The notes below the pieces were generated by a model. It was not told the DNA's origin. It was given only the letters and a program-made list of their open reading frames with translations, and ran no database searches. Source: Methylophilaceae bacterium (GTDB lineage Bacteria > Pseudomonadota > Gammaproteobacteria > Burkholderiales > Methylophilaceae). Taken from it: a stretch of 55,394 nt of DNA. Every line of letters begins with the position of its first letter. Positions within the stretch are counted from its first letter, which is position 1. The position numbers were made by a program, and so were the translations under genes. This document shows positions 6,094-55,394 of this stretch, in pieces. The stretch is from the NCBI GenBank assembly GCA_017858095.1, contig JAFMCB010000006.1, forward strand, positions 1 through 55,394. Reading direction: 5' to 3'.

Positions 6094-6723
6094 ATGGCAT
6101 TAACACAAATGGCATTAGATTCATTAGATTTTGATGCAACCGTTGCACTCGCTGAAACAGTTGCACCACACGTTGATATTCTTGAAATTGGAACACCATG
6201 CATTAAGCATAACGGTATCAAGCTTCTCGAGACACTTCGTGCAAAATTTCCAAACAACCTTATCTTAGTTGACCTTAAAACTATGGATGCTGGTGAGTAT
6301 GAGGCTGAGCCTTTTTACAAAGCTGGCGCAGATATCTGTACAGTTCTTGGTGCTTCAGGCATTGCTACCATCAAGGGCGTTATTGCTGCTGCTAAGAAAT
6401 ATGGCAAAGAAGTGCAAGTTGATATGATTAACGTTGCAGACAAAGAAGCACTTGCAAAAGAATGCGTTGCTGCTGGCGCTCAGATCATTGGTGTTCACAC
6501 TGGTCTTGATGCTCAAGCTGCTGGCCATACTCCTTTTGCAGACTTAGCTGCTATTGCTGCATTAAATACAGGCGCTAAAATTTCTGTTGCTGGTGGCGTA
6601 AAAGCTAACACAACACAGCAAGTTAAAGATGCTGGTGCTGCAATTATTGTTGCTGGTGCTGCAATTTACGGTGCTGCTGATCCAGCTGCTGCGGCTGCTG
6701 AAATTACAGCGATCGCTCACTAA
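6094..6723 (+). CDS. hps: 3-hexulose-6-phosphate synthase
   Basis: 209 residues, an OMP-decarboxylase-superfamily TIM barrel. Characteristic blocks are VDILEIGTPCIKHNG (28-42), the VDLKTMDAGEYEA active-site segment (about 69-81) and VAGGVKANT near the C-terminus. It condenses formaldehyde with ribulose 5-phosphate to D-arabino-3-hexulose 6-phosphate, the first step of the RuMP cycle. The gene is visibly richer in G/C and uses GCT/GCA alanine codons repeatedly, unlike its AT-rich neighbours, as expected for very high expression. It has its own promoter upstream and an intrinsic terminator downstream, so it can be a single-gene transcript. Confidence 0.95.
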   Translation: MALTQMALDSLDFDATVALAETVAPHVDILEIGTPCIKHNGIKLLETLRAKFPNNLILVDLKTMDAGEYEAEPFYKAGADICTVLGASGIATIKGVIAAAKKYGKEVQVDMINVADKEALAKECVAAGAQIIGVHTGLDAQAAGHTPFADLAAIAALNTGAKISVAGGVKANTTQQVKDAGAAIIVAGAAIYGAADPAAAAAEITAIAH

Positions 6724-44618: not shown

Positions 44619-45466
44619 TGCATGCATTCAAAGGGATCTGCTGTTTATTATTTGGTACCATCACGTGGGGTTTGTTATGGTACCCTTACCGCCTTTTAGA
44701 TTTTAATGGCATCAACGGCGTTTATGCCAGCTTGTATAGTTTTATTGGCGCACTCCTATTGGCTGTATTTCTTTATCGATTAAAAAATACGCATTCTTTT
44801 CTGAAAAAAGAATTTTGGATTTATGCTGCCATAGGTGGAATTACGAATATAAGTTATGTGCTTGCTGTGATCAGTGGTGAGGTAGTCAGAGTCATGCTGC
44901 TTTTCTTTTTATCGCCTATATGGACAATTCCCATGTCCTTTTTTTTACTGAAAGAAAAAATTTATAACAAAAATATTATTGCAGCATTATTGGCTATGCT
45001 CGGTGCAATTATCATTCTTTGGCATGAGAACCTATTCAACCAACCGCTAAACCTAAGCGATACCTTTGCAATTATCGCTGGTATTGGATTTGCATTAACT
45101 AATGTGATGGCAAGATTTTATAATTTCTTGTCGGTGCAAGAAAAATCCTATGCCATTTGGCTTGGTGTTGTTGTCGTTTCGGTAATAACGATCCTTCTTT
45201 TTCAATTACATTATGTCGCGCCACATACAGCTTCAAACTCTTTGGGGTTAATCGCAATTATTGCTTTAACGCTGCTCGTGACCACCCTTACTGTTCAATA
45301 CGGATTAACGCTCGTAAAAGCAGTCACTGCGAGCCCAATATTTCTGTTTGAAATTATTGTCGCTGGGGTTTCTGCTTATTTCTTGGCTAATGAAATGATT
45401 GGCTGGAAAGATTTATTGGGTGGCATATTTATTGTTTTAGGTATTTTTATATCCACTCGAAAGTAA
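44618..45466 (+). CDS. DMT-superfamily permease (EamA family)
   Basis: 282 residues with about ten hydrophobic helices in two EamA halves (about 5-130 and 145-280). The first begins CCLLFGTITWGLLWYPYRLL; the second ends with WKDLLGGIFIVLGIFIS. Such proteins export amino acids or other metabolites; the substrate here is unknown. It overlaps miaA by one base and its last 30 bp overlap the TPR/GT41 gene on the other strand. Confidence 0.83.
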   Translation: MHAFKGICCLLFGTITWGLLWYPYRLLDFNGINGVYASLYSFIGALLLAVFLYRLKNTHSFLKKEFWIYAAIGGITNISYVLAVISGEVVRVMLLFFLSPIWTIPMSFFLLKEKIYNKNIIAALLAMLGAIIILWHENLFNQPLNLSDTFAIIAGIGFALTNVMARFYNFLSVQEKSYAIWLGVVVVSVITILLFQLHYVAPHTASNSLGLIAIIALTLLVTTLTVQYGLTLVKAVTASPIFLFEIIVAGVSAYFLANEMIGWKDLLGGIFIVLGIFISTRK

Positions 45467-47296
45467 GGATTTATAAAGTGACTCCAGGCGCCGGGTAAAG
45501 AGCGCGGGTTTAAAGAGGTCGCTGGTTTCTATTTTTTCTTTTATCTTCACTTTTAGTAAGTTAAGTTCGGTTCGATGGGTAGCCAAATAAATGGCTTTTT
45601 TAATAAAATCCTCCTCGGATGGACATATTAATTCCTCACAACCCATGGATGTCAGAATTGACCCTGCGACCCTGCTGGCAAAAGTAGTGCCCGACCTTGT
45701 AATGACAGGACATGTTGTCCAAAGAGCATCAGATGCTGATGTATGTGCGTTATAGGGAAAAGTATCAAGGAAAATATCAATAATTTGATGACGGTTGATA
45801 TGCGCGTCATAGTCTACTTTTGGTGCAAATTTTATGCGCTCAGGAGCGATACCTTGTTTTTCCGCATAGCTCCATAGATTATTTGAACACTCGGTATTTG
45901 ACTCAAGCAGCCATAATTTTGCGTTAGGTACCGATGCTAAAATTTTTAACCAAGAATCAAATCTCTCTTGACTAATCTTTATGGACTGACCAAAAGATGC
46001 AAAAATAAAATCATCGTCTTGAAATCCCAAATCAACTTTTTTTATTTTTTTTAGTTGAGGCCGATGACTTATATTTGGCTGGTAGCAACCATCAATCCTT
46101 AAAACTTTTTCCGCATAATTGTTTTCCTCAGTTGGCGGAATAAGATACTCATCTGCGAGAATGAAATCACACACTGGTTCATGATTAAAATAACCTAATG
46201 AGCCTGCAAAACCCAGCCAATTAATATGAAATCGTGCGGGCCGTAGGGCGGCAATCATCGACCGACTGTTTTGTGTAAACCCTGACAGATCGACCAATAT
46301 ATCAATATTTTCTTCCTCTATTAATGTGGCGAGTTCTATATCAGTTTTTGTGTTAACTTCATGCATGCCGAAGGGGAGTTGGCGAAAATTTTTATATTCC
46401 GCTGAATGTTCTTCAAAGCCGGAATAAAAAAGTTTGACGGTAAAGTCATCCAGGTTGTGATGTTTAAAAACATCAAAAATAAGCGAATACAGTGGGTGCT
46501 GCCTAAAATCTGCTGATAAATAGCCAATCACAGGCTTCGCATTGTTCCCGTGATTTTTTTTCTTAAAAGCAGGTAACTGATATTGCTGAGCCCACAAGCT
46601 AGATGTGTTTAATTGTTGGGACGCGGTAAAGTTAGGCATTGATAACACAGTGAATGGAGACACTTTACCTTTTTTGTTACGCACCTCATTTGCGATGGTG
46701 GACTGATACTCATCAAGCTTATCCCAATCGCAAATATTTTGTTTAAGGTGAGTTAATTCAACCAAGGTGTGCGTATTATTCTTTAGGCTTAACGAGGCTA
46801 CATAGTGCTCCCGCGCTTTCAAAAAATTTCCAACATGACGGTAAGTGTTTGCAAGGTTATTGTGTGTATCAGCACTTTTCTCAATGGCCAATGAGCGCTG
46901 GTAGAGCGGCAGGGCTTTCTTGTAATTTTTTTGTGCAAAACAGGCATTTGCCAGGTTATATAATATATCGGCGCGCATGGTATCAAAACTCAAAGCCTCC
47001 TCAAATGCAGCTTCTGCTAACTCATATTTCTTTCCATTATGGTAATCATTGCCAATGGCGTTTAGGCAAAAAATTAGACCATTTTTAAGTGCAGCATTAT
47101 CAGGAAAGTAGCGATGCGCCCGACGAAGGTAGCCAGATGCCTCCTCAAAGTTATTATTTAACGCATAAAGATTGCCTATTTCTATCTGAATAAAATAATT
47201 TTTCGGGTCAGCCTCAAGTGCTTTTAAATAACTTGCAATCGCATCATCATAGCGACCATGACTTTCGTGTTCTTTGGCTTTTTTTATGTGATCCAT
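45437..47296 (-). CDS. TPR protein with O-GlcNAc-transferase-like (GT41/SPINDLY) domain
   Basis: 619 residues. About five TPR repeats fill residues 1-170 (for example ADILYNLANACFAQKNYKKALPLYQRSL). The GT41 catalytic part follows from about 235. DFRQHPLYSLI matches the catalytic-His region of OGT, SFGQSIKISQERFDSW the UDP-binding Lys region, and DTFPYNAHTSASDALW the end of the sugar site. It would transfer a sugar to Ser/Thr of proteins; targets are unknown. It begins 1 bp after the first CFA-type gene, as last member of the minus-strand run, though its work may be unrelated. Confidence 0.87.
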   Translation of the reverse strand: MDHIKKAKEHESHGRYDDAIASYLKALEADPKNYFIQIEIGNLYALNNNFEEASGYLRRAHRYFPDNAALKNGLIFCLNAIGNDYHNGKKYELAEAAFEEALSFDTMRADILYNLANACFAQKNYKKALPLYQRSLAIEKSADTHNNLANTYRHVGNFLKAREHYVASLSLKNNTHTLVELTHLKQNICDWDKLDEYQSTIANEVRNKKGKVSPFTVLSMPNFTASQQLNTSSLWAQQYQLPAFKKKNHGNNAKPVIGYLSADFRQHPLYSLIFDVFKHHNLDDFTVKLFYSGFEEHSAEYKNFRQLPFGMHEVNTKTDIELATLIEEENIDILVDLSGFTQNSRSMIAALRPARFHINWLGFAGSLGYFNHEPVCDFILADEYLIPPTEENNYAEKVLRIDGCYQPNISHRPQLKKIKKVDLGFQDDDFIFASFGQSIKISQERFDSWLKILASVPNAKLWLLESNTECSNNLWSYAEKQGIAPERIKFAPKVDYDAHINRHQIIDIFLDTFPYNAHTSASDALWTTCPVITRSGTTFASRVAGSILTSMGCEELICPSEEDFIKKAIYLATHRTELNLLKVKIKEKIETSDLFKPALFTRRLESLYKSLLSSGYKNT

Positions 47297-47297
47297 A

Positions 47298-48500
47298 TCA
47301 GTTTCGATAGAGTGGTTTCGTAAGATGCAGATGAATATCGCTGATCACTTTTTCTTTGAACCCTCCCTCGCAGTAACAAAAATAGAAAAACCACATACGC
47401 ATAAATTCTGCATCAAAGCCTAACTCTTTAATTCGGGCTTTATTTGCAACAAATTTTACCTTCCAGGCATTAAGTGTTCTTGCATAATCACTGCCGATAT
47501 CTTGGATATCAAAAATAGTCATGTCTGTGGCACGGGTCAAACTCTCTTGCATGCTTGTTACGGAGGGAATGGTGCTACCGGGGAAGATGTATTTTTGAAT
47601 GAAATCGACTGATTTAAGCGCCGCTTTATATCTTTGATCACGGATGGTGATGGCTTGAATTAATGCGTCGCCGTCATCGGTAAGTAAAGTTGCAATCTTA
47701 CTAAAATACGTGTCATAAAAGTGATGGCCAACTGCTTCAATCATCTCAATGGATACCAGTTTATTGTATTTTCCTGTTAATTGTCGGTAGTCTTTTTTAA
47801 CCAGCGTTATTTTTTTTGATAACTTTAGCTGTTTTATTTTGTTTTTAACATAGAGAAATTGTTGCTCTGAAATGGTTGTCGTCGTCACATGGCAACCGTA
47901 ATTTTGAGCAGCGTATATTGCAAAGCCACCCCAGCCTGAACCAATTTCTACTAAGCGATCGGTACTTTTTAATTTTAATTTTTCACAGATAATTTTTATT
48001 TTATTGATCGCAGCCTCTTCCAAATTCATTTTCGTATTTGCATATATGGCCGATGAGTACATCATGGAAGCGTCTAAAAATAGGGCGAAAAAATCATTAC
48101 TCAAATCGTAATGACGGACGATATTCTTCTTACTGCCTGCTACTGTATTTTTATTTAGATAGTGAATGATCTTGAGCAAAGGTTGCAGCAATACCTTATA
48201 AGACCCCTCCATGCTATCCATTGCCGCACTATTGACGGCCATCAGTCTGATTACGTCCGTTAAATTTTTACTGCGCCAATCACCACGCATGTATGATTCC
48301 GCCGCGCCAATTGAACCGCCGAAAAGAATATAAGCATAGAAATTAGGATTTAAAACTTTAATGTCTGCGCGAATGCGATTACGTGTGCCAAATACTGAAA
48401 CCTTTTTGTTCTCAGTGATAAGTAACTGACCGTGATGTATTTTTGCTAACTGGTGGCTAACAATATTTCTGGCAAGCTTATTAATATAATTTCTAATCAT
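47298..48500 (-). CDS. Cyclopropane-fatty-acyl-phospholipid synthase family methyltransferase
   Basis: 400 residues, the length of full CFA synthases. An N-terminal lipid-binding domain (about 1-115) precedes the methyltransferase: HYDLSNDFFALFLD (130-143), SAM motif VEIGSGWGG (184-192) and VSIEMIEAVGHHFYDTYF with the acid thought to place bicarbonate. It methylenates or methylates the double bond of membrane unsaturated acyl chains. Its neighbours (DUF1365, flavoprotein) are the partners often found beside it. Whether the product is a cyclopropane or a mid-chain methyl group cannot be told. It overlaps DUF1365 by one base. Confidence 0.9.
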   Translation of the reverse strand: MIRNYINKLARNIVSHQLAKIHHGQLLITENKKVSVFGTRNRIRADIKVLNPNFYAYILFGGSIGAAESYMRGDWRSKNLTDVIRLMAVNSAAMDSMEGSYKVLLQPLLKIIHYLNKNTVAGSKKNIVRHYDLSNDFFALFLDASMMYSSAIYANTKMNLEEAAINKIKIICEKLKLKSTDRLVEIGSGWGGFAIYAAQNYGCHVTTTTISEQQFLYVKNKIKQLKLSKKITLVKKDYRQLTGKYNKLVSIEMIEAVGHHFYDTYFSKIATLLTDDGDALIQAITIRDQRYKAALKSVDFIQKYIFPGSTIPSVTSMQESLTRATDMTIFDIQDIGSDYARTLNAWKVKFVANKARIKELGFDAEFMRMWFFYFCYCEGGFKEKVISDIHLHLTKPLYRN

Positions 48501-49231
48501 TACGGATGTCGATAAAATTTTACGCGCTTCAAAAAGAGGAGCAAGGCGTTCATGTAAATCAGGATTATGGCCTTAATTGACATGGGAATGGTTAGAAATA
48601 AAATCTTGTTTAGCTCCCAATTACTCCAAGCGCTTTTTTTTAATTTAAGTCCTGCGTTAAAAATTTTTTCTTTGTTCTGAAAATTATCCATGGAGATATA
48701 TAAAAAATCTCTGGGCTCGGTAAAGATCCATTTATAGTCAATATTCATTGGCATAAAGGGTGAGACGTGAAAGTTTTTTTTAAAGGAAATACCTTCCGAT
48801 TTAAATGTACGGTTTCTGCAATCATGCACGTAGGCATATTTTTCATTCCAGGGTGTGTTAGTAATGTGAGAGATAATGGCGATAAGCTTTTCTTTATCAT
48901 CATAACAATAATAGAAGCTGACAGGATTGAAGCAATATCCAAAATACCGAACGCTGGTGAGGAGAAATATTTTACCGGTTATGCCAATATTAATTTCTTG
49001 CCGTATAAGGTTTTTAACAGCGTCGATCAATGGCTCACTTGCATCACCCAGATAATCTTTACGATGAAAAGCAGCTAAATTAAATTTATCTAAGCTCCAA
49101 AATAAATTTCCTGTAAAGGCGGTCTGTATTTGCTCTAAATCAATAAATAAATAACTCACGTCGTATGCAAAAGAATGTTTTTTTGGTTTGACTCGGTGAT
49201 GCGTAACCTGGCCTTTAAAAATAGCATGCAT
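48500..49231 (-). CDS. DUF1365 protein
   Basis: 243 residues. Family blocks are visible: FKGQVTHHRVKPKKHSFAYDVSYLFIDL at the start, RYFGYCFNPVSFYYCYD (about 111-127), NTPWNEKYAYV and the FHVSPFMPMNIDY segment. A C-terminal hydrophobic stretch (about 210-232) may attach it to the membrane. Its activity is not known to me. It commonly lies between a flavin amine-oxidase-like gene and a CFA-type gene, as here, so a role in acyl-chain modification is inferred from context. Confidence 0.88.
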   Translation of the reverse strand: MHAIFKGQVTHHRVKPKKHSFAYDVSYLFIDLEQIQTAFTGNLFWSLDKFNLAAFHRKDYLGDASEPLIDAVKNLIRQEINIGITGKIFLLTSVRYFGYCFNPVSFYYCYDDKEKLIAIISHITNTPWNEKYAYVHDCRNRTFKSEGISFKKNFHVSPFMPMNIDYKWIFTEPRDFLYISMDNFQNKEKIFNAGLKLKKSAWSNWELNKILFLTIPMSIKAIILIYMNALLLFLKRVKFYRHP

Positions 49232-49233
49232 AA

Positions 49234-50475
49234 TTATGCGATAAGATGATTGAATTGATCTACCGCATCATAGGCACTTTTAACGCCATCTTCATGAAAA
49301 CCGTTGCCCCAGTATGCACCGGCATAGAATGTTCTATTGACCCCTGATATTTTATTTTTCTGTTTTTGTGCAGCTATTGCTTGCAAAGTAAAGGTCGGGT
49401 GATGGTAGTGAATGATTTTTAAAATTTTATTTTTGTTAATTTGGGCAATGGAATTGAGTGAGACAAGAAGCGGGTCTACAGTATCGATGTTTTGTAAAAT
49501 ATTCATGTTGTAGGTTAACTTAATTGGTGTCTGCAAATCATTATCGATATTATAGTTCCATGCAGCCCAAGATAATTTCTTTTTGGGCAATAAACTCCGA
49601 TCGGTGTGCAAGACAACATTGTTTTCTGCATAAGGAATTGCACTTAGGATCTGATGTTCCGCTAAAGAGACATCGCCTAATAATTTTAGCGCTTCATCAC
49701 TGTGGCAGGCGAAAAATACATAATCAAATTGCTCTTTTATTCCATCGTAGCGGATATTTACCGACTCTTTCGCCCGTGTAATTTCTTTAATGCTGGTATT
49801 GAGTTTAATGTTTGCTTTAAAAGGCTGGGTTAATTTATCCACGTAATGACTCGAACCGTTGGTAATCGTAAGCCATTGGGGACGATTATTAACCGACAAC
49901 ATGCCATGGTTATGAAAGAATTGGATAAAAAACTTAGCCGGAAAATCAAGCATCGTTTGCATGTTGGAGGACCAAATGGCGGAACCCATCGGCAAAATAT
50001 AATAATTTTTAAAATAATTTGAATAGCGCTGCTTACTCAAATAAGCACCTAATGAAATTTCCACATCCGTATTGAGTAATTTTGGCGCCTGGCGATTAAA
50101 CCTGACAATCTCGAAAATCATCTTTAAGAAGTTTACATTGAATATATTTTTTCTTTGTGAGAACAGCGTGTTAATGGACGTGCCATTATATTCCACATTA
50201 TTTTCTTCTGAAAAAACACTGAAGCTCATGTTGCTATTTTCATAGGCAACACCCAGCTTATCCATCAGATTGGTAAAAAGGGGGTAGGTCTTTTTATTGA
50301 ATACAATAAACCCGGTATCGACGTTAATTTGCTTGTTTTCAAGCTCGATCTGATGGGTGTGTGAGTGCCCACCGATACGGCTATTCTTTTCAAAGACCGT
50401 TATATCATGTTGACGATAAAGAAGATGGGCAATGGTGTTTCCGGCGATGCCTGAACCAACAATGGCTATTTTCAT
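49234..50475 (-). CDS. FAD-dependent amine-oxidase-like protein of CFA/DUF1365 loci
   Basis: 413 residues. The dinucleotide motif GSGIAGNTIAHLLY (7-20) and the following VFEKNSRIGGHSHT bind FAD. VDTGFIVFNKKTYPLF and the C-terminal FYAGAYWGNGFHEDGVKSAYDAV complete the flavin fold. Relatives are labelled cyclopropane/cyclopropene-fatty-acid flavin oxidases, and one relative takes part in furan-fatty-acid synthesis in Rhodobacter sphaeroides. It may desaturate a methylated acyl chain (inference). Gaps to its neighbours are 2 and 6 bp. Confidence 0.88.
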   Translation of the reverse strand: MKIAIVGSGIAGNTIAHLLYRQHDITVFEKNSRIGGHSHTHQIELENKQINVDTGFIVFNKKTYPLFTNLMDKLGVAYENSNMSFSVFSEENNVEYNGTSINTLFSQRKNIFNVNFLKMIFEIVRFNRQAPKLLNTDVEISLGAYLSKQRYSNYFKNYYILPMGSAIWSSNMQTMLDFPAKFFIQFFHNHGMLSVNNRPQWLTITNGSSHYVDKLTQPFKANIKLNTSIKEITRAKESVNIRYDGIKEQFDYVFFACHSDEALKLLGDVSLAEHQILSAIPYAENNVVLHTDRSLLPKKKLSWAAWNYNIDNDLQTPIKLTYNMNILQNIDTVDPLLVSLNSIAQINKNKILKIIHYHHPTFTLQAIAAQKQKNKISGVNRTFYAGAYWGNGFHEDGVKSAYDAVDQFNHLIA

Positions 50476-50481
50476 TACAGC

Positions 50482-51420
50482 TTACTTGAGTTTGATTTTA
50501 TTCGATTCACGAACATTTGAGCTGACTGTTTTTAAATCCCAAATGATACCAAAGAGGGACAGGATCCTTAACAAATAATAGGTGATATCAATTTCCCACC
50601 AATAAAAACCTTGTTTCGCTGAGCCGGGATAATGATGGTGATTATTATGCCAACCTTCGCCAAATGTCAGCAGGGCTAAGAAAAAATTATTTTTGCTGCC
50701 GTCTTGGGTTTGATAGCGTTTTTTGCCCCAAAGATGAGAGGCAGAATTAATTAAAAAGGTAGAGTGGTAAAGAATTACTGTTGAAAACACAAATCCCCAG
50801 GCAACCAGTTGCCAACCCGTTACCTCAGTTGCTGGGTAGACATAGGCTAGACTTTCGCCTAAGCCATAGAGCATGACGCAGGTCAGTATGGGGATAAGGC
50901 TATCAAATCGATCTATGAGGCGGAGCTCTGGAAAACGTGAGAGCTCTTTTACCCACCTAGTCTCAGTCAAAAAGTTTGCTTTGGTTAGGAACCAACCGGT
51001 ATGGCTCCAGAAAAAGCTATGCACTTTCGGTGAATGTTGATCCTCGTCACTGTCTGAATGCACATGGTGGCGACGGTGATGCGAGGCCCACCAGAGTGGC
51101 CCACGTTGCACAGCCGAGGCACCAACTAAAGCAAAAAAGAATTGCATTAGGCGGCTCGTTTTAAACGTTTTATGCGAAAAGTAACGGTGATAAAAGCCCG
51201 TGATAGCAAACATTCGCGAAACATACATAAAAAGGAATACTGCAAGGGCGATATGACTGTAACCAACATAGAAGAGAGAAATCAAGCCCAAATGAAGGCC
51301 TAGGTAGGGAATAACTCTGGGCCAGTCAATTTCTTTGGCAGGAAAGTTTTTCGCTTGGTATTCATTCTCTTTAACCTTATTGTCGAACCAACCCAAGATT
51401 TGCATTAAGAGTTTTTTCAT
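50482..51420 (-). CDS. Acyl-CoA/acyl-lipid delta-9-type fatty acid desaturase
   Basis: 312 residues. Four helices and three histidine boxes give the di-iron site: His78-x4-His83 (HRYFSHK), His114-His115-x2-His118-His119 (HHRRHHVH) and His258-x2-His261-His262 (HNNHHHYPG). It inserts a cis double bond using O2 and an electron donor. Having it inside the CFA-type operon suggests that substrate double bonds are made on demand, since the cell also has type II synthesis with FabI. It overlaps the lipocalin gene by 4 bp. Confidence 0.92.
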   Translation of the reverse strand: MKKLLMQILGWFDNKVKENEYQAKNFPAKEIDWPRVIPYLGLHLGLISLFYVGYSHIALAVFLFMYVSRMFAITGFYHRYFSHKTFKTSRLMQFFFALVGASAVQRGPLWWASHHRRHHVHSDSDEDQHSPKVHSFFWSHTGWFLTKANFLTETRWVKELSRFPELRLIDRFDSLIPILTCVMLYGLGESLAYVYPATEVTGWQLVAWGFVFSTVILYHSTFLINSASHLWGKKRYQTQDGSKNNFFLALLTFGEGWHNNHHHYPGSAKQGFYWWEIDITYYLLRILSLFGIIWDLKTVSSNVRESNKIKLK

Positions 51421-51935
51421 TGCTGCGGTACCATCCTTAAGTTTTCAATGCTGTAGCCCATGGCTTTAATCATTTCGGTAAATTTTACTATGTCATCATG
51501 CGGCAATTCTTTCTTTCTTGACATTAACCAAACATAATCCAATGCATCCCTGGCAATGATAGTATGGCTGTAATCACTGTCTAAGTAACTTATTTTATAC
51601 TGCGCTTTGATGGGCCAGATAAATTGCATGCCCCATTCGGCATTGCCAGTTGCTGGTACCACAAAACCTTTTGGCCGATATATTTTTTGCGGCCCATCAA
51701 AACTTCCCTCATTGAACGTAAAGGTGGTTGCAATGGTGCCATCTGCATTTAATGCATACGACTCCACGGCATTGAAGGCATTTTTTTCTATAAAGGTTGG
51801 GATATGGGCGATGACATACCAATCACCCATAAATTGATCCATATCCACCGACGTCACGAGAGGTACCTTGGTTTGCTGCATAGAACATCCTGTAAGAAAT
51901 AAAATAAATAAAATAAAACGTTTAAAATTAATCAT
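51417..51935 (-). CDS. Lipocalin-family outer-membrane lipoprotein (Blc-like)
   Basis: 172 residues. The signal peptide ends in FLTGC, with Cys17 as lipidation site. The lipocalin GxW motif is in FMGDWYVIAHIPTF (about 35-48), and a closing YVWLMSRKKELP block matches Blc. Blc-like lipocalins bind lysophospholipids or fatty acids at the outer membrane. It could handle modified or oxidised acyl chains made by this operon (inference). Confidence 0.9.
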   Translation of the reverse strand: MINFKRFILFILFLTGCSMQQTKVPLVTSVDMDQFMGDWYVIAHIPTFIEKNAFNAVESYALNADGTIATTFTFNEGSFDGPQKIYRPKGFVVPATGNAEWGMQFIWPIKAQYKISYLDSDYSHTIIARDALDYVWLMSRKKELPHDDIVKFTEMIKAMGYSIENLRMVPQQ

Positions 51936-51948
51936 TTAATTGATTCAG

Positions 51949-52569
51949 TTAATGTAATTTATAGATAAGATCGCCAGCCGCCGTTGGTGATAACAGCTTA
52001 ACCCAGTTACCATTTTCATCGTACCATAGTTCGATAATGAATTTTTCATAACCTTTCAGACTTGCTTTGAGTCGATGATGCTGAGTCTTGACAGCCTTGC
52101 CTTGAACAGAGATGACCGCATCCCCAATGCGGCTTGCTTCAATATCAAGCCATTCGGCATTTTGCGCGTTGAGCAGCTGCTTTTTATTGACAACATCAGC
52201 ATCCCAGTAGGTAAACGTTGATATGCAACCCGGCAGGCTAATTTCTTTACCGTTTGCCGTGATTTGCATGCCTTGCGCAGAGCCTTTACCTGATACCTTG
52301 TAGTTGTCGCCATCGTCATTCGTCATACTGTGAATGGCCGTTAGACAGCCATCATCATAAGTTTCAAAAGATTCATGCTTGTAGGTGAAATTCATAAATA
52401 AAACTTTAATTCGATAATTTGCCTTGCTAACCACATTGTTATTCTCAATTTCATACAAGTGCGTTCCCACCGGATCCTCATCCATAAAGACGTCAAACAT
52501 GAGCTCCTTTGCGTGGCCTGTGGCGACAACACACCAAAGCAAGATAAAGATTAATTTTTTGGCGGCCAT
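51949..52569 (-). CDS. DUF6134-like exported protein
   Basis: 206 residues. A signal peptide (about 1-19, ending GHA) precedes a beta-rich domain that starts MFDVFMDEDPVGTHLYEIEN and has paired strands throughout, resembling DUF6134 proteins. The fold suggests binding of a hydrophobic ligand in the periplasm, but no activity is known to me. It overlaps the DUF1295 gene by 19 bp, so expression is tightly linked to the lipid enzymes. Confidence 0.7.
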   Translation of the reverse strand: MAAKKLIFILLWCVVATGHAKELMFDVFMDEDPVGTHLYEIENNNVVSKANYRIKVLFMNFTYKHESFETYDDGCLTAIHSMTNDDGDNYKVSGKGSAQGMQITANGKEISLPGCISTFTYWDADVVNKKQLLNAQNAEWLDIEASRIGDAVISVQGKAVKTQHHRLKASLKGYEKFIIELWYDENGNWVKLLSPTAAGDLIYKLH

Positions 52570-53315
52570 GGTATAAATTTTGACGTTGAATTGACGTAGG
52601 CTTTGTAGCCAGGTCGGCGTTCTGTAATTGTCGACTCCATTAAGTCTGCCCCAGAGATTTTTACCAATAAAATCGTCATCAGGATGGGGGAGATGAGGAT
52701 AAATATACTGCTACTCGGCATAGCAATAATGTAAAACCCCCACCATATTAAGCACTCCCCAAAATAGTTAGGATGGCGGCTATAGCGCCAAAGTCCAGTG
52801 TTTAACACAGCGTGTGTCTTATTTGATTTTAAAAAAGTTTGCAACTGCCTGTCAGCCAATAGCTCGATTAAAAACCCGACAGCAAACAGGGCTAAACCGA
52901 TCTTGGTGAATACATCGTAGCTTATCGCCTGTTGGCTGATACTAACGAGTGGCAGTGCGATGAGCAGCGCCAGTAATGCCTGAAATAAAAAAATGATGTA
53001 ACTACTTTTCCATTTGAAGAAAGGTTCGTTATTGGCCCTGATATGTTGGTAGCGAATATCCTCCACCTTAGCCCAATTTCTTATCGTCAGATGGATCGAT
53101 AGTCGTAATGACCAGATCACTAGGGCCACTAAAGTTGCGAGCTGCACATTGCTAATTTCATTTAGGTAACAGAGGCCTGTCAAGTAGGCAACTAGAAAAA
53201 AAAGGCTCCACATACTATCCACATGGGTCACTTTGTTGGCGAATAGGCTATAGAGCCAACCTAAAAGGGCAAAGATAACAAGATTAAGCGCGATAGCAGG
53301 GTAGATCTCTAGCAT
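52551..53315 (-). CDS. DUF1295 membrane enzyme (steroid 5-alpha-reductase-like)
   Basis: 254 residues with six to seven membrane segments. The C-terminal signature RYSRHPNYFGECLIWWGFYI and RRPGYKAYVNSTSKFIPW place it in DUF1295, related to NADPH-dependent steroid 5-alpha-reductases and isoprenylcysteine methyltransferases. It could reduce a conjugated or double-bonded lipid. The substrate is unknown. It starts within the end of the DUF2878 gene (7-bp overlap). Confidence 0.88.
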   Translation of the reverse strand: MLEIYPAIALNLVIFALLGWLYSLFANKVTHVDSMWSLFFLVAYLTGLCYLNEISNVQLATLVALVIWSLRLSIHLTIRNWAKVEDIRYQHIRANNEPFFKWKSSYIIFLFQALLALLIALPLVSISQQAISYDVFTKIGLALFAVGFLIELLADRQLQTFLKSNKTHAVLNTGLWRYSRHPNYFGECLIWWGFYIIAMPSSSIFILISPILMTILLVKISGADLMESTITERRPGYKAYVNSTSKFIPWPPKN

Positions 53316-53812
53316 GGCTTCTTCGTCAATCCCATCAGTAAAGGTGTAATTATCGCCCAGCCCAGCGCGAGTATGTAAAGTGACGAAGTTGACAGGATGG
53401 TAATCGCACCTAACTTTTCGCCGGCGAGATAGGCCAGAGGCCCGCCGATGAGCCCAAATAAAATACTAATAACGATCCGACCTTGCATCCATTTCAAACT
53501 ATGGTTGAGCGTCATTGCAAAAATTCCCCACATGATTAGAATCCATAACGGGGGAAGGGGGTAAGGCCAACCTGGGTTGTTGTACAAGATATATTGTTGG
53601 AACTGTAAAAAGCCGTCAAAAACACTCCCAATAAGAACTGCGTAAATAAATAACCTGACGTCTGCACCTTTTTTATGTGTCACTTTTAGATGAAAAATAA
53701 TCAAGCCCAAAGCAATAAAAATTGCCTCGTAAACATAATTGTGTGCCGCGCCAAGAATACAGACAAACCAGCCGAGCTGAAATAAAGAAAAGTTAATTAT
53801 ATTTTGTTTCAT
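53309..53812 (-). CDS. DUF2878 integral membrane protein
   Basis: 167 residues, five or so membrane helices with little soluble sequence. SLFQLGWFVCILGAAH near the start, YNNPGWPYPLPPLWILIMWG in the middle and GPLAYLAGEKLGA match DUF2878. The function is unknown; it recurs beside DUF1295 and CFA-type genes in other Proteobacteria. It overlaps both neighbours (4 and 7 bp). Confidence 0.87.
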   Translation of the reverse strand: MKQNIINFSLFQLGWFVCILGAAHNYVYEAIFIALGLIIFHLKVTHKKGADVRLFIYAVLIGSVFDGFLQFQQYILYNNPGWPYPLPPLWILIMWGIFAMTLNHSLKWMQGRIVISILFGLIGGPLAYLAGEKLGAITILSTSSLYILALGWAIITPLLMGLTKKPC

Positions 53813-54840
53813 TTTTTAAAGAGGTAGTGTGCTACCCGCCATTCATTCCCATTGTTGTACCCCCAAAGTTCGGCGCACGCCATAAAAAATATGCGCCAGC
53901 GTTGCAACCAGCGTTTGGCTTCCGCGGCACCATAAATTGTCGCAAGGGTGGTGATTGCCGCAGCACGGTTACTATCTAAATTATTCAGCCACGCATTTGC
54001 GGTTTTTTCATACTGCACGCCAGACCACGTCCATTGCTTTACTATGCTCAGCTCATCTTGAAAAAATAAGGGTAAATCTTCACTTGGCATCATGCCACCC
54101 GAAAAAAAATACTTGCTCATCCAGTCATCATCATCCACCACTTCAAACAAATACGGTTGCGATTGATGCACAAAGATATGCATAAAGAAAAGACCATCGT
54201 TGTTTAACCATTGTTCAATTTTTTTAAATAACTGGCGGTGATTACGCATGTGTTCAATCATTTCAACAGAGACCACACGGTCAAATTTTTGGTTTAAGTG
54301 AAAGTCGTTCATATCGCAGGTGATAACCTCGACATTTTTTAGCTTTCTTTTTTTAGCCTGTGCGAGGATATATTTTTTTTGCGAGGCAGAATTTGAGACG
54401 GCGGTAATGGATGCGTTCGGATAGTTGCTTGCCATCCATAGCGTTAATGAACCCCAACCACAACCCAGCTCTAATACCTTTTGCCCGTCAGCAAGCCTGG
54501 CGTGTGTGCAGGTTTTTTTTAGCGCCAGTGCTTCCGCACCGCCTAAAGTTTGCGTCGATTTATTCCAGTAGCAGGAACTGTATTTTTTGTGCTTGCCAAG
54601 ACATAAATCATAAAACGCTGCTGGGATTTCATAATGTTGCGCATTGGCCAGATCGGGAACCAGCGCAATCGGTGCATTATCCATGGCGGCAATAAATTCT
54701 TGCTTTCTCTCTTGATTAACTTCCGCATTAGCGCTAATTAAGCTCGTCAATCTCTTTGACAATAAATAGCGAATGCCTGCCCTGATGAAACAATCAGGCA
54801 GCAAGCCTTTTTCAGTAAGATGGATGAGTGGCTTTATCAT
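53809..54840 (-). CDS. Second CFA-superfamily methyltransferase, coclaurine N-methyltransferase-like
   Basis: 343 residues from MIKPLIHLTEKG at 54840. The frame runs 54 codons further upstream, but that part is Lys/Ile-rich, covers the promoter region and reaches into the divergent gene, so it is rejected. SAM motif LELGCGWGSLTLWMA and VSVEMIEHMRNH are clear. FYDLCLGKHKKYSSCYW and the final ELWGYNNGNEWRVAHYLF tail are those of the branch that includes plant coclaurine N-methyltransferases. It lacks the full N-terminal domain of classical CFA synthase. It is the first gene of the lipid operon. Confidence 0.88.
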   Translation of the reverse strand: MIKPLIHLTEKGLLPDCFIRAGIRYLLSKRLTSLISANAEVNQERKQEFIAAMDNAPIALVPDLANAQHYEIPAAFYDLCLGKHKKYSSCYWNKSTQTLGGAEALALKKTCTHARLADGQKVLELGCGWGSLTLWMASNYPNASITAVSNSASQKKYILAQAKKRKLKNVEVITCDMNDFHLNQKFDRVVSVEMIEHMRNHRQLFKKIEQWLNNDGLFFMHIFVHQSQPYLFEVVDDDDWMSKYFFSGGMMPSEDLPLFFQDELSIVKQWTWSGVQYEKTANAWLNNLDSNRAAAITTLATIYGAAEAKRWLQRWRIFFMACAELWGYNNGNEWRVAHYLFKK

Positions 54841-54852
54841 GCTTGAAAATAC

Positions 54853-54879
54853 TTTCGACTTTTTTATTTTTTTTCGACT
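54853..54879 (-). promoter_or_regulatory. Paired 8-bp direct repeat in the lipid-operon leader
   Basis: On the operon strand AGTCGAAA occurs twice (plus-strand TTTCGACT at 54853-54860 and 54872-54879), 19 bp start to start, just before the operon's first ATG. The GTCGA core stands out in very AT-rich DNA. The near two-turn spacing fits an activator or repressor binding to one face of the helix. Confidence 0.45.
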
Positions 54880-54921
54880 ACATAAATAGTACAGTAAAAA
54901 TGTTTTATTGATGTTTATGTA
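54879..54921. promoter_or_regulatory. Inverted repeat in the divergent spacer before the DUF1993 gene
   Basis: TACATAAA (54879-54886) and TTTATGTA (54914-54921) are perfect inverted copies 27 bp apart between the lipid operon and the DUF1993 gene. The right arm directly precedes TATAAT (54922-54927), a likely -10 for the plus-strand gene, so binding there could affect both directions. Confidence 0.4.
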
Positions 54922-54954
54922 TATAATATTTCTTTCATTCATTTGAGGTAAACC

Positions 54955-55394
54955 ATGGCAAATAATCTTTATAATTTTTCTGTGCCACTTTTTATTCACC
55001 ACTTTGATATGCTCGCAAAAATTCTTAAGAAAGGTGAGAGGTATGCGGAAAAAAAGAAGATTGATAAAGATGTTCTTATAAATTCACGTTTAATAGCAGA
55101 CATGTTTCCATTGACGCGACAAATACAAATTGCAACAGACATGGTTAGGCTAGGCATGGCTCGGATGTCAAATAAGAAAGCCCCATCTTTTAAGGACAAT
55201 GAAAAAACTTTTGCGGAGCTCGATAAGCGTATTCAAAAAACCATTTTATTTTTAAAAAAAATTAAACCGCAGGACATGCAAGGCGCAGAGGAAAAACCGA
55301 TTGAATTTTCGATTCGTACCAATACCTTTAAATTTAAAAATGGCGAGGATTACTTAAAGGACTGGATAATTCCGCATTTCTTCTTCCACATGAC
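54955..55394 (+). CDS. DUF1993 family protein, 3' end outside the window
   Basis: The frame is open from the ATG at 54955 (GAGG ribosome site about 6 bp ahead) to the end of the window, 146 codons without a stop. It reads LYNFSVPLFIHHFDMLAKIL, then RLIADMFPLTRQIQIATDM and KFKNGEDYLKDWIIPHFFFHM, the blocks of DUF1993, a helical-bundle family related to DinB. Most of the domain is inside the window; about 20-30 residues are probably missing. The function is unknown. It is divergent from the lipid operon with a 114-bp spacer. Confidence 0.85.
   Translation, partial: MANNLYNFSVPLFIHHFDMLAKILKKGERYAEKKKIDKDVLINSRLIADMFPLTRQIQIATDMVRLGMARMSNKKAPSFKDNEKTFAELDKRIQKTILFLKKIKPQDMQGAEEKPIEFSIRTNTFKFKNGEDYLKDWIIPHFFFHM

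Follow-up and report, generated by a model that had tools for sequence, protein, structure and literature searches.

A nine-gene operon on the minus strand of a contig from a Methylophilaceae bacterium is predicted from its sequence to make a furan fatty acid in membrane phospholipids, and the product is probably carried on to the dimethyl form. The operon fills positions 47298-54840 of the window, which is the whole stretch of 55,394 nucleotides that was analyzed and equals the entire contig (C20, JAFMCB010000006.1) of a genome of 1.15 Mb in 44 contigs that is 89% complete (G000). A dimethyl furan fatty acid is the likeliest product because a FufM-like methyltransferase, CFA-type 2 (CFA2), is encoded beside a core that resembles UfaM, UfaD and UfaO. 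The core chemistry is already known, but the assembly around it, with five accessory families, is new. The nine open reading frames (ORFs) are, in the order of transcription:

53809..54840, minus strand: CFA2, FufM-type S-adenosylmethionine-dependent methyltransferase, 343 aa, CMAS; first gene of the operon
53309..53812, minus strand: DUF2878 protein, 167 aa, reads as hydrophobic (PF11086, E 4.2e-39)
52551..53315, minus strand: DUF1295 protein, 254 aa, steroid reductase/PEMT/ICMT group (PF06966, E 9.3e-57)
51949..52569, minus strand: DUF6134 protein, 206 aa (PF19630, E 1.8e-39)
51417..51935, minus strand: lipocalin (Lipocalin_2), 172 aa, with a lipobox-like cysteine (PF08212, E 3.1e-33)
50482..51420, minus strand: FA_desaturase, SCD-type membrane acyl desaturase, 312 aa (Pfam; 4ymk, E 1.3e-31)
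49234..50475, minus strand: UfaD-type flavin adenine dinucleotide (FAD) oxidoreductase (Amino_oxidase), 413 aa (PF01593, E 3.2e-18)
48500..49231, minus strand: UfaO-type DUF1365 protein, 243 aa, predicted furan-forming oxygenase (PF07103, E 9.2e-71)
47298..48500, minus strand: CFA-type 1 (CFA1), UfaM-type fatty acyl methyltransferase, 400 aa, CMAS (profile and clade)

The genes, their order and their close packing agree with the original prediction for this DNA. All nine ORFs are present, and each named family passes its Pfam cut-off. At five junctions the genes overlap (by 4, 7, 19, 4 and 1 bp), and at three they are separated by gaps (13, 6 and 2 bp). For the first gene, the start at 54840 is backed by relatives that match from residue 1 onward. 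The gene order was found again in relatives and in other gammaproteobacterial families, and the arrangement is therefore beyond chance. Family and subfamily identity, gene order, co-occurrence and predicted folds are what the analysis itself establishes.

The last three genes form the core. As described in the available part of PMC7380195, the genes RPA2569-2571 of Rhodopseudomonas palustris CGA009 (UfaM, UfaO and UfaD) are all needed for a monomethyl furan fatty acid and together suffice for it, and the route leads from a phospholipid-bound monounsaturated chain via methylation and desaturation to O2 insertion. The four enzymatic steps have been demonstrated in Rhodobacter and Rhodopseudomonas by other groups. 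Strain JSC-3b of R. palustris has the FAD, DUF1365 and CFA genes contiguous (locus L273) and in the same order as in the window. The identities to these homologues are 38.6% over 412 aa for the FAD protein (UfaD), 26.6% for DUF1365 (UfaO), and 35.7% for CFA1 (UfaM). A link to UfaM, UfaD and UfaO had been proposed earlier, and homologues of all three were indeed found in the R. palustris gene order. Identity and place in the gene order mark the FAD protein as UfaD-type, and the DUF1365 protein classifies as UfaO-type by its PF07103 match above the cut-off and by the residues H11, R13, Y134 and S157, which are invariant in 156 of 156 sequences and kept in the window.

UfaM and Cfa cannot be told apart by plain identity: CFA1 is 35.7% identical to the UfaM homologue and 32.3% to E. 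coli Cfa, a protein to which the JSC-3b UfaM homologue itself is 38.2% identical. In a FastTree tree of 257 CMAS proteins, CFA1 and the JSC-3b UfaM homologue fell into one clade (n=131, support 0.971), with E. coli Cfa outside. The positions C139 and H266 of E. coli Cfa, which we take to be its bicarbonate-binding site, are occupied by S and Q in CFA1, and by S and the conserved H in CFA2. Q at the H266 position was found in 129 of the 131 CFA1-labelled sequences, including the window protein, and also in the UfaM homologue. Clade and residue thus characterize CFA1 as a UfaM-type methyltransferase distinct from Cfa.

The second methyltransferase points to a further step. The available part of PMC7380195 reports that RPA0924 (FufM) of R. 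palustris produces a dimethyl furan fatty acid and is 26% identical to R. sphaeroides UfaM; judging from a plasmid entry in that paper, RPA0923 is located upstream of RPA0924. In strain JSC-3b, two CMAS matches are prominent, the UfaM homologue and one other. The gene of the latter overlaps by 4 bp with a preceding DUF1295 gene (L174) and is about 1.5 Mb away from the core locus. This protein is 25.4% identical to the JSC-3b UfaM homologue. Owing to the low identity to UfaM and the DUF1295 neighbor, we infer that it is FufM, and RPA0923 would then be the DUF1295 gene. CFA2 of the window shares 47.6% identity with this FufM homologue over 338 aa, but only 29.9% with the UfaM homologue. It also belongs to the FufM clade (n=124, with the JSC-3b protein counted twice; FastTree support 0.909), again with E. 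coli Cfa outside, and thus qualifies as FufM-type by sequence, with the presumed JSC-3b FufM as reference. In all 123 CFA2-labelled sequences, F replaces I268 of E. coli Cfa. The best PDB matches of CFA2 are coclaurine/pavine N-methyltransferases (6gkv, E 2.3e-75), to which it is closer than to any Cfa with a solved structure (E. coli Cfa, 6bqc, 5.4e-29). The Arabidopsis homologue of FufM is LIME1/AtFUFM1, according to the available part of PMC10940516. Compared with FufM (RPA0924) and LIME1, CFA2 has a similar length and shares the clade with the JSC-3b homologue, and a DUF1295 gene lies beside or near both fufM and the window gene; a difference is that CFA2, whose activity is predicted, is linked to the core. 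LIME1 presumably belongs to an N-methyltransferase-like group. The earlier claim of two different CFA-type methyltransferases could thus be sharpened: the two are not interchangeable, type 1 being UfaM-like and type 2 FufM-like.

A neighborhood comparison had been proposed as a test of the original prediction, and it revealed that the families do co-occur in relatives. Within the family, 87 of 120 sampled genomes had a DUF1365 match and 33 had none. Forty loci hand-chosen from the 87 genomes contained CFA1 (39), FAD (39), lipocalin (36), desaturase (35), DUF1295 (29), CFA2 (28), DUF2878 (27), and DUF6134 (20). A gammaproteobacterial class sample of 274 genomes yielded 27 with DUF6134 (21 over the cut-off), 46 with DUF2878 (45), and 78 with DUF1365. 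After subtraction of the window's own locus, 77 DUF1365 loci were left, of which 12 with less than 5.5 kb of flank were dropped. The census thus comprised 65 loci flanked by at least 5.5 kb on both sides, and genes were counted within 9 kb; loci with DUF2878 only (L261, L263, L265-L271), two re-fetched loci (L262 and L264), and CFA2-module loci without DUF1365 were excluded. FAD was present in 64 of the loci, CFA1 in 62, CFA2 in 21, and the desaturase in 19. When loci with CFA2 were compared to those without, DUF1295 was found in 15/21 versus 0/44, the lipocalin in 9/21 versus 0/44, DUF6134 in 6/21 versus 0/44, and the desaturase in 15/21 versus 4/44. In these gammaproteobacterial loci, the four families therefore go with the FufM-type gene and occur rarely or never with the bare core. 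DUF2878 was found in 16/21 versus 10/44 loci and is thus not tied solely to the FufM module; it directly follows CFA1 in core-only loci such as L213, L216, L225, L226, L229, and L233.

Two arrangements recur. One is that of the window, CFA2-DUF2878-DUF1295-DUF6134-lipocalin followed by the desaturase and the core (e.g. L093 and L096). In the other, the core comes first, in the order desaturase-FAD-DUF1365-CFA1-DUF2878-DUF1295-CFA2 (e.g. L199, L201, L223, and L227). A separate observation is that in L047 (genome G053) a CFA2-DUF2878-DUF1295-lipocalin unit is divergent from a more distant FAD-DUF1365-CFA1 unit. The search for CFA2 relatives leans to the Alphaproteobacteria because a Mesorhizobium sequence leads the query. 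In the best 80 alphaproteobacterial CFA2 loci of at least 583 relatives (genes counted within 9.5 kb), DUF1295 was present in 65; it adjoined CFA2 in 50, and in 46 of these it was upstream.

The accessory proteins could be assigned to varying depth. The best structural match of the desaturase is acyl-CoA desaturase 1 (4ymk, as listed above), and the protein has the three boxes of SCD1, HRYFSH, HRRHH, and HNNHH, with histidines invariant in 55 or 56 of 56 sequences. The original prediction has the operon make the substrate double bond, and this enzyme may supply it. FabA is also present in the genome, however, so that unsaturated chains in general do not depend on the desaturase. Temperature-induced lipocalin-1 (8wb2, 8.8e-16) is the nearest relative of the lipocalin, followed by Blc entries (1.1e-9 to 3.9e-9), and its lipobox-like C17 is found in 53 of 56 sequences. 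The DUF1295 protein has weaker Steroid_dh, PEMT, and ICMT matches in addition to PF06966, no PDB sequence match at E <= 0.1, and residues G174, W176, and R180-H-P-N-Y184 that are invariant in 110 of 110 sequences. It is 31.3% identical to the DUF1295 protein adjoining the FufM homologue of JSC-3b, and by sequence it is probably a reductase or a methyltransferase. In a literature search, no paper on DUF6134 was found, and DUF2878 came up in two.

Structure prediction had been suggested for DUF1365 and DUF6134, and the outcome was divided. The DUF6134 model, built from 12 sequences (predicted local distance difference test score, pLDDT, 86), has a half-barrel fold over the mature domain and matches EipB/DUF1849 (6ntr; Foldseek E 2.1e-5; VIA Z 15.1 over 185 residues, root-mean-square deviation 3.3). 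Other VIA Z scores were 15.2 for a sperm axonemal chain (9fqr_Xh), 11.7 for DUF1089, 10.2 for LmcA, 10.0 for VioE, up to 8.5 for LolA, and up to 7.7 for LolB. As the axonemal chain, DUF1089, and VioE also score, the fold alone cannot fix the function. The N-terminal stretch reads by eye as a signal peptide, and an exported lipid carrier with an EipB/LolA-like half-barrel is possible and fits the model. Family and fold evidence thus supports the proposal that the lipocalin and DUF6134 may handle lipids. In an Azospirillum thermophilum plasmid (L106), the DUF6134 gene adjoins SDR, NTF2-like, and DUF3833 genes, with DUF1365-FAD and ECF-ChrR genes near. The DUF1365 model (pLDDT 88) had no Foldseek match at E <= 0.001. 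Its best VIA Z scores, against barrels of the spirocyclase, nitrobindin, and lipocalin-like kinds, were 7.8 to 6.0, and the tool warns that scores in this range are frequent. Because these matches are weak and generic, no cofactor is claimed.

Based on these assignments, the following route is proposed. The substrate would be an acyl chain with one double bond, made either by FabA-type synthesis or by the SCD-type desaturase of the operon. CFA1 would methylate the acyl chain (UfaM step), the FAD protein would desaturate the methylated chain to a conjugated diene (UfaD step), and DUF1365 would close the ring with O2, yielding the monomethyl furan (UfaO step). CFA2 would then add the second methyl group to the furan ring (FufM step). 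In the periplasm, the lipocalin, as a lipoprotein, and the exported DUF6134 protein may bind the furan lipid or products of its oxidation, or transport them. DUF1295 and DUF2878 would be membrane partners, the former probably working with FufM. The purpose might be to guard against singlet oxygen or light. That the same reactions, this purpose, and each accessory role apply to this bacterium is what we infer, and the product and the accessory roles are thus predictions. A "methylated, furan or other modified" product had been expected, and the FufM-like CFA2 narrows this to a predicted dimethyl furan fatty acid.

The regulation of the operon was analyzed in the same genome; the original prediction had pointed to similar gene sets in light- or singlet-oxygen-induced loci. 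No match to ChrR (PF12973) was found in the genome at its 89% completeness. TGATCC-n15-18-TAAGA, the RpoE-type motif of R. sphaeroides, was searched for in the upstream regions of related genes (504 stretches), including that of the window operon, and no match was found. Control by an extracytoplasmic function (ECF) sigma factor and ChrR was thus rejected; by analogy to other clades, light or singlet-oxygen control might still apply. On individual plasmids of Rhizobium, Burkholderia, and Mesorhizobium, genes for an ECF sigma factor and an anti-sigma factor adjoin the DUF1295-CFA2 pair or are one gene off. The direct repeat TATACAGGTTAGTATACA was found upstream of CFA2 in two relatives from the family, L050 and L057 (2 of 504 regions; shuffled mean 0.0), where it is possibly the operator of a LitR/CarH-like light regulator, and no exact copy of TATACAGGTTAGTATACA is present upstream of the window operon. 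Scans of the operon for promoters and terminators, the region 54841..54954 included, gave matches no commoner than in shuffled sequences.

Several findings weigh against the furan pathway as proposed. CFA1 is not far from Cfa, as the identities given above show, and E. coli Cfa is its closest solved structure. With just 26.6% identity to the R. palustris homologue, the activity of DUF1365 could differ. The Fisher tests of the census gave p values of 3e-10 to 7e-4 that are uncorrected for shared ancestry. FufM by itself sufficed for dimethylation in R. sphaeroides, as the available part of PMC7380195 states, and therefore DUF1295 is not required there and has another job. The missing ChrR match counts here as well. 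Six loci of the same genus (L032, L033, L034, L061, L063, and L064) have lipocalin, desaturase, and core with no CFA2 in the fetched stretch, so that these two accessory proteins can work for the core by itself. In the best 80 alphaproteobacterial loci, CFA1 was present in 34, DUF6134 in 12, the lipocalin in 3, and the desaturase and DUF2878 in none. Together with the DUF1295 counts above, these numbers indicate that what is widely shared is the pair of CFA2 and DUF1295, and that the larger set belongs to the Gammaproteobacteria. Lastly, two genomes of one genus (G212 and G333; 90 and 95% complete) have CFA2-DUF2878-DUF1295-DUF6134-lipocalin and no DUF1365 match genome-wide, and CFA2 may therefore not need a furan. 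In three further genomes (G167, G272, and G282), the CFA2 module reaches the contig end, so that the absence of DUF1365 there says little.

G212 and G333 lend some support to the view that two lipid pathways are combined, in which the first ends at a monomethyl furan or a methyl-branched ene or diene, and CFA2 methylates another lipid, for example an amine-bearing one. Alkaloid N-methyltransferases are the closest solved structures to CFA2, and CFA2 module and core are separable, as in the divergent units of L047. Nevertheless, this view is rather unlikely in light of the identity of CFA2 to the R. palustris FufM homologue in the same clade, and of the presence of DUF1365 in 56 and FAD in 57 of the best 80 alphaproteobacterial CFA2 loci. 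It is improbable that the desaturase also acts on the methylated chain and that the operon yields acyl chains that are polyunsaturated or conjugated instead of furans. An SCD-like desaturase is encoded in the operon, and FabA could make the first double bond independently of it; however, FAD accompanies 64 of the 65 DUF1365 loci and the desaturase just 19, and the JSC-3b core locus (L273) has no desaturase match in 19.5 kb. That both CFA-type genes make cyclopropane fatty acids and that their neighbors are accidental is very improbable. Both proteins match the CMAS profile, and CFA1 has the similarity to Cfa noted above, but neither reaches the 400-bit cut-off of the NCBIfam Cfa model PRK11705.1 (CFA1 268, CFA2 150), E. 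coli Cfa is outside both clades, and the families strongly co-occur in the census. A third strong CMAS gene of the genome (C18:10913-11695; L275) has the E. coli residues at both the C139 and H266 positions, and ordinary cyclopropane synthesis therefore has its own gene. Clades, residues, and this separate Cfa led us to reject ordinary cyclopropane synthesis as the function of the operon.

The predicted furan pathway can be compared to several known systems. The Ufa pathway of Rhodobacter (Cereibacter) sphaeroides and R. palustris has three homologous enzymes and, in R. palustris, the same FAD-DUF1365-CFA order, whereas the window core is part of an operon of nine genes, in which it is joined by a FufM-type gene, a desaturase, a lipocalin, and the families DUF6134, DUF1295, and DUF2878. 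As far as the available descriptions go, the light-linked pmlR1 region of Pseudomonas shares an FAD oxidoreductase and ufaM with the window and differs in its photolyase, SDR, and LitR-type regulator; the light-linked Aeromonas cluster shares cfa, FAD, DUF1365, and DUF2878 and differs in its SDR and NTF2-like genes; and the blue-light-induced CFA gene VC1122 and the DUF2878 gene VC1123 of Vibrio belong to families common to the operon. By the same descriptions, the window operon has the FufM-type gene, DUF1295, DUF6134, lipocalin, and desaturase in addition. The available flanks of the window are devoid of the photolyase, SDR, LitR-type regulator, and NTF2-like genes of the Pseudomonas and Aeromonas clusters. 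A plasmid of Acinetobacter sp. WY4 (L102) encodes lipocalin, desaturase, FAD, DUF1365, CFA1, DUF1295, and CFA2 on one strand, but in another order, with no DUF2878 or DUF6134 annotated in 17 kb, and with photolyase and two-component genes near. A literature search gave no pairing of Methylophilaceae with furan fatty acids among the matches listed.

The surroundings of the operon are:

45437..47296, minus strand: ORF with TPR and glycosyltransferase family 41 (PF13844, E 3.7e-55)
54841..54954: intergenic region, presumed operon promoter, divergent from the DUF1993 ORF
54955-55392, plus strand: DUF1993 ORF, cut by the contig end (PF09351, E 6.5e-45)

The TPR/glycosyltransferase ORF begins 1 bp past the CFA1 stop, so that the transcript may hold ten genes. 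In several relatives, such a gene is near the set with other genes in between, and it is probably just a neighbor. Upstream of the operon, the contig continues for 554 bp and breaks off within the divergent DUF1993 ORF, and the operon and this gene have their upstream region in common. A hexulose-phosphate synthase of the ribulose monophosphate (RuMP) pathway is encoded at 6106-6711, the G+C content of the window is 37.7%, genomes of the genus are 1.1-1.4 Mb in size, and 15 of its 17 genomes have rhodopsin genes. These features appear to match the streamlined planktonic Methylophilaceae described in the available part of PMC6794327.

The enzymes of furan fatty acid synthesis have so far been tested in two bacteria, as far as the available sources report. 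The results name five accessory families for furan lipid work, i.e. DUF1295, DUF2878, DUF6134, lipocalin, and SCD-type desaturase. In addition, a single residue, Q instead of H at position 266 of the E. coli protein, offers a flag for UfaM versus Cfa, both of which go by the name cyclopropane synthase in plain annotation. Furan fatty acids are scavengers of radicals and singlet oxygen, and the rhodopsins in genomes of the genus indicate that small-genome methylotrophs live in light. As a tentative and rather doubtful extension, CFA2-DUF2878-DUF1295-DUF6134-lipocalin could be a separable pathway for a further-methylated, perhaps reduced, furan or other lipid, with a dedicated LolA-like carrier and the lipocalin bringing this lipid to the outer membrane. 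Such a pathway would run together with the Ufa core in some bacteria and by itself in others, and in streamlined planktonic methylotrophs it might provide the outer membrane with a shield against photo-oxidation. In summary, furan fatty acids, probably in the dimethyl form, are predicted to occur in small-genome methylotrophs.

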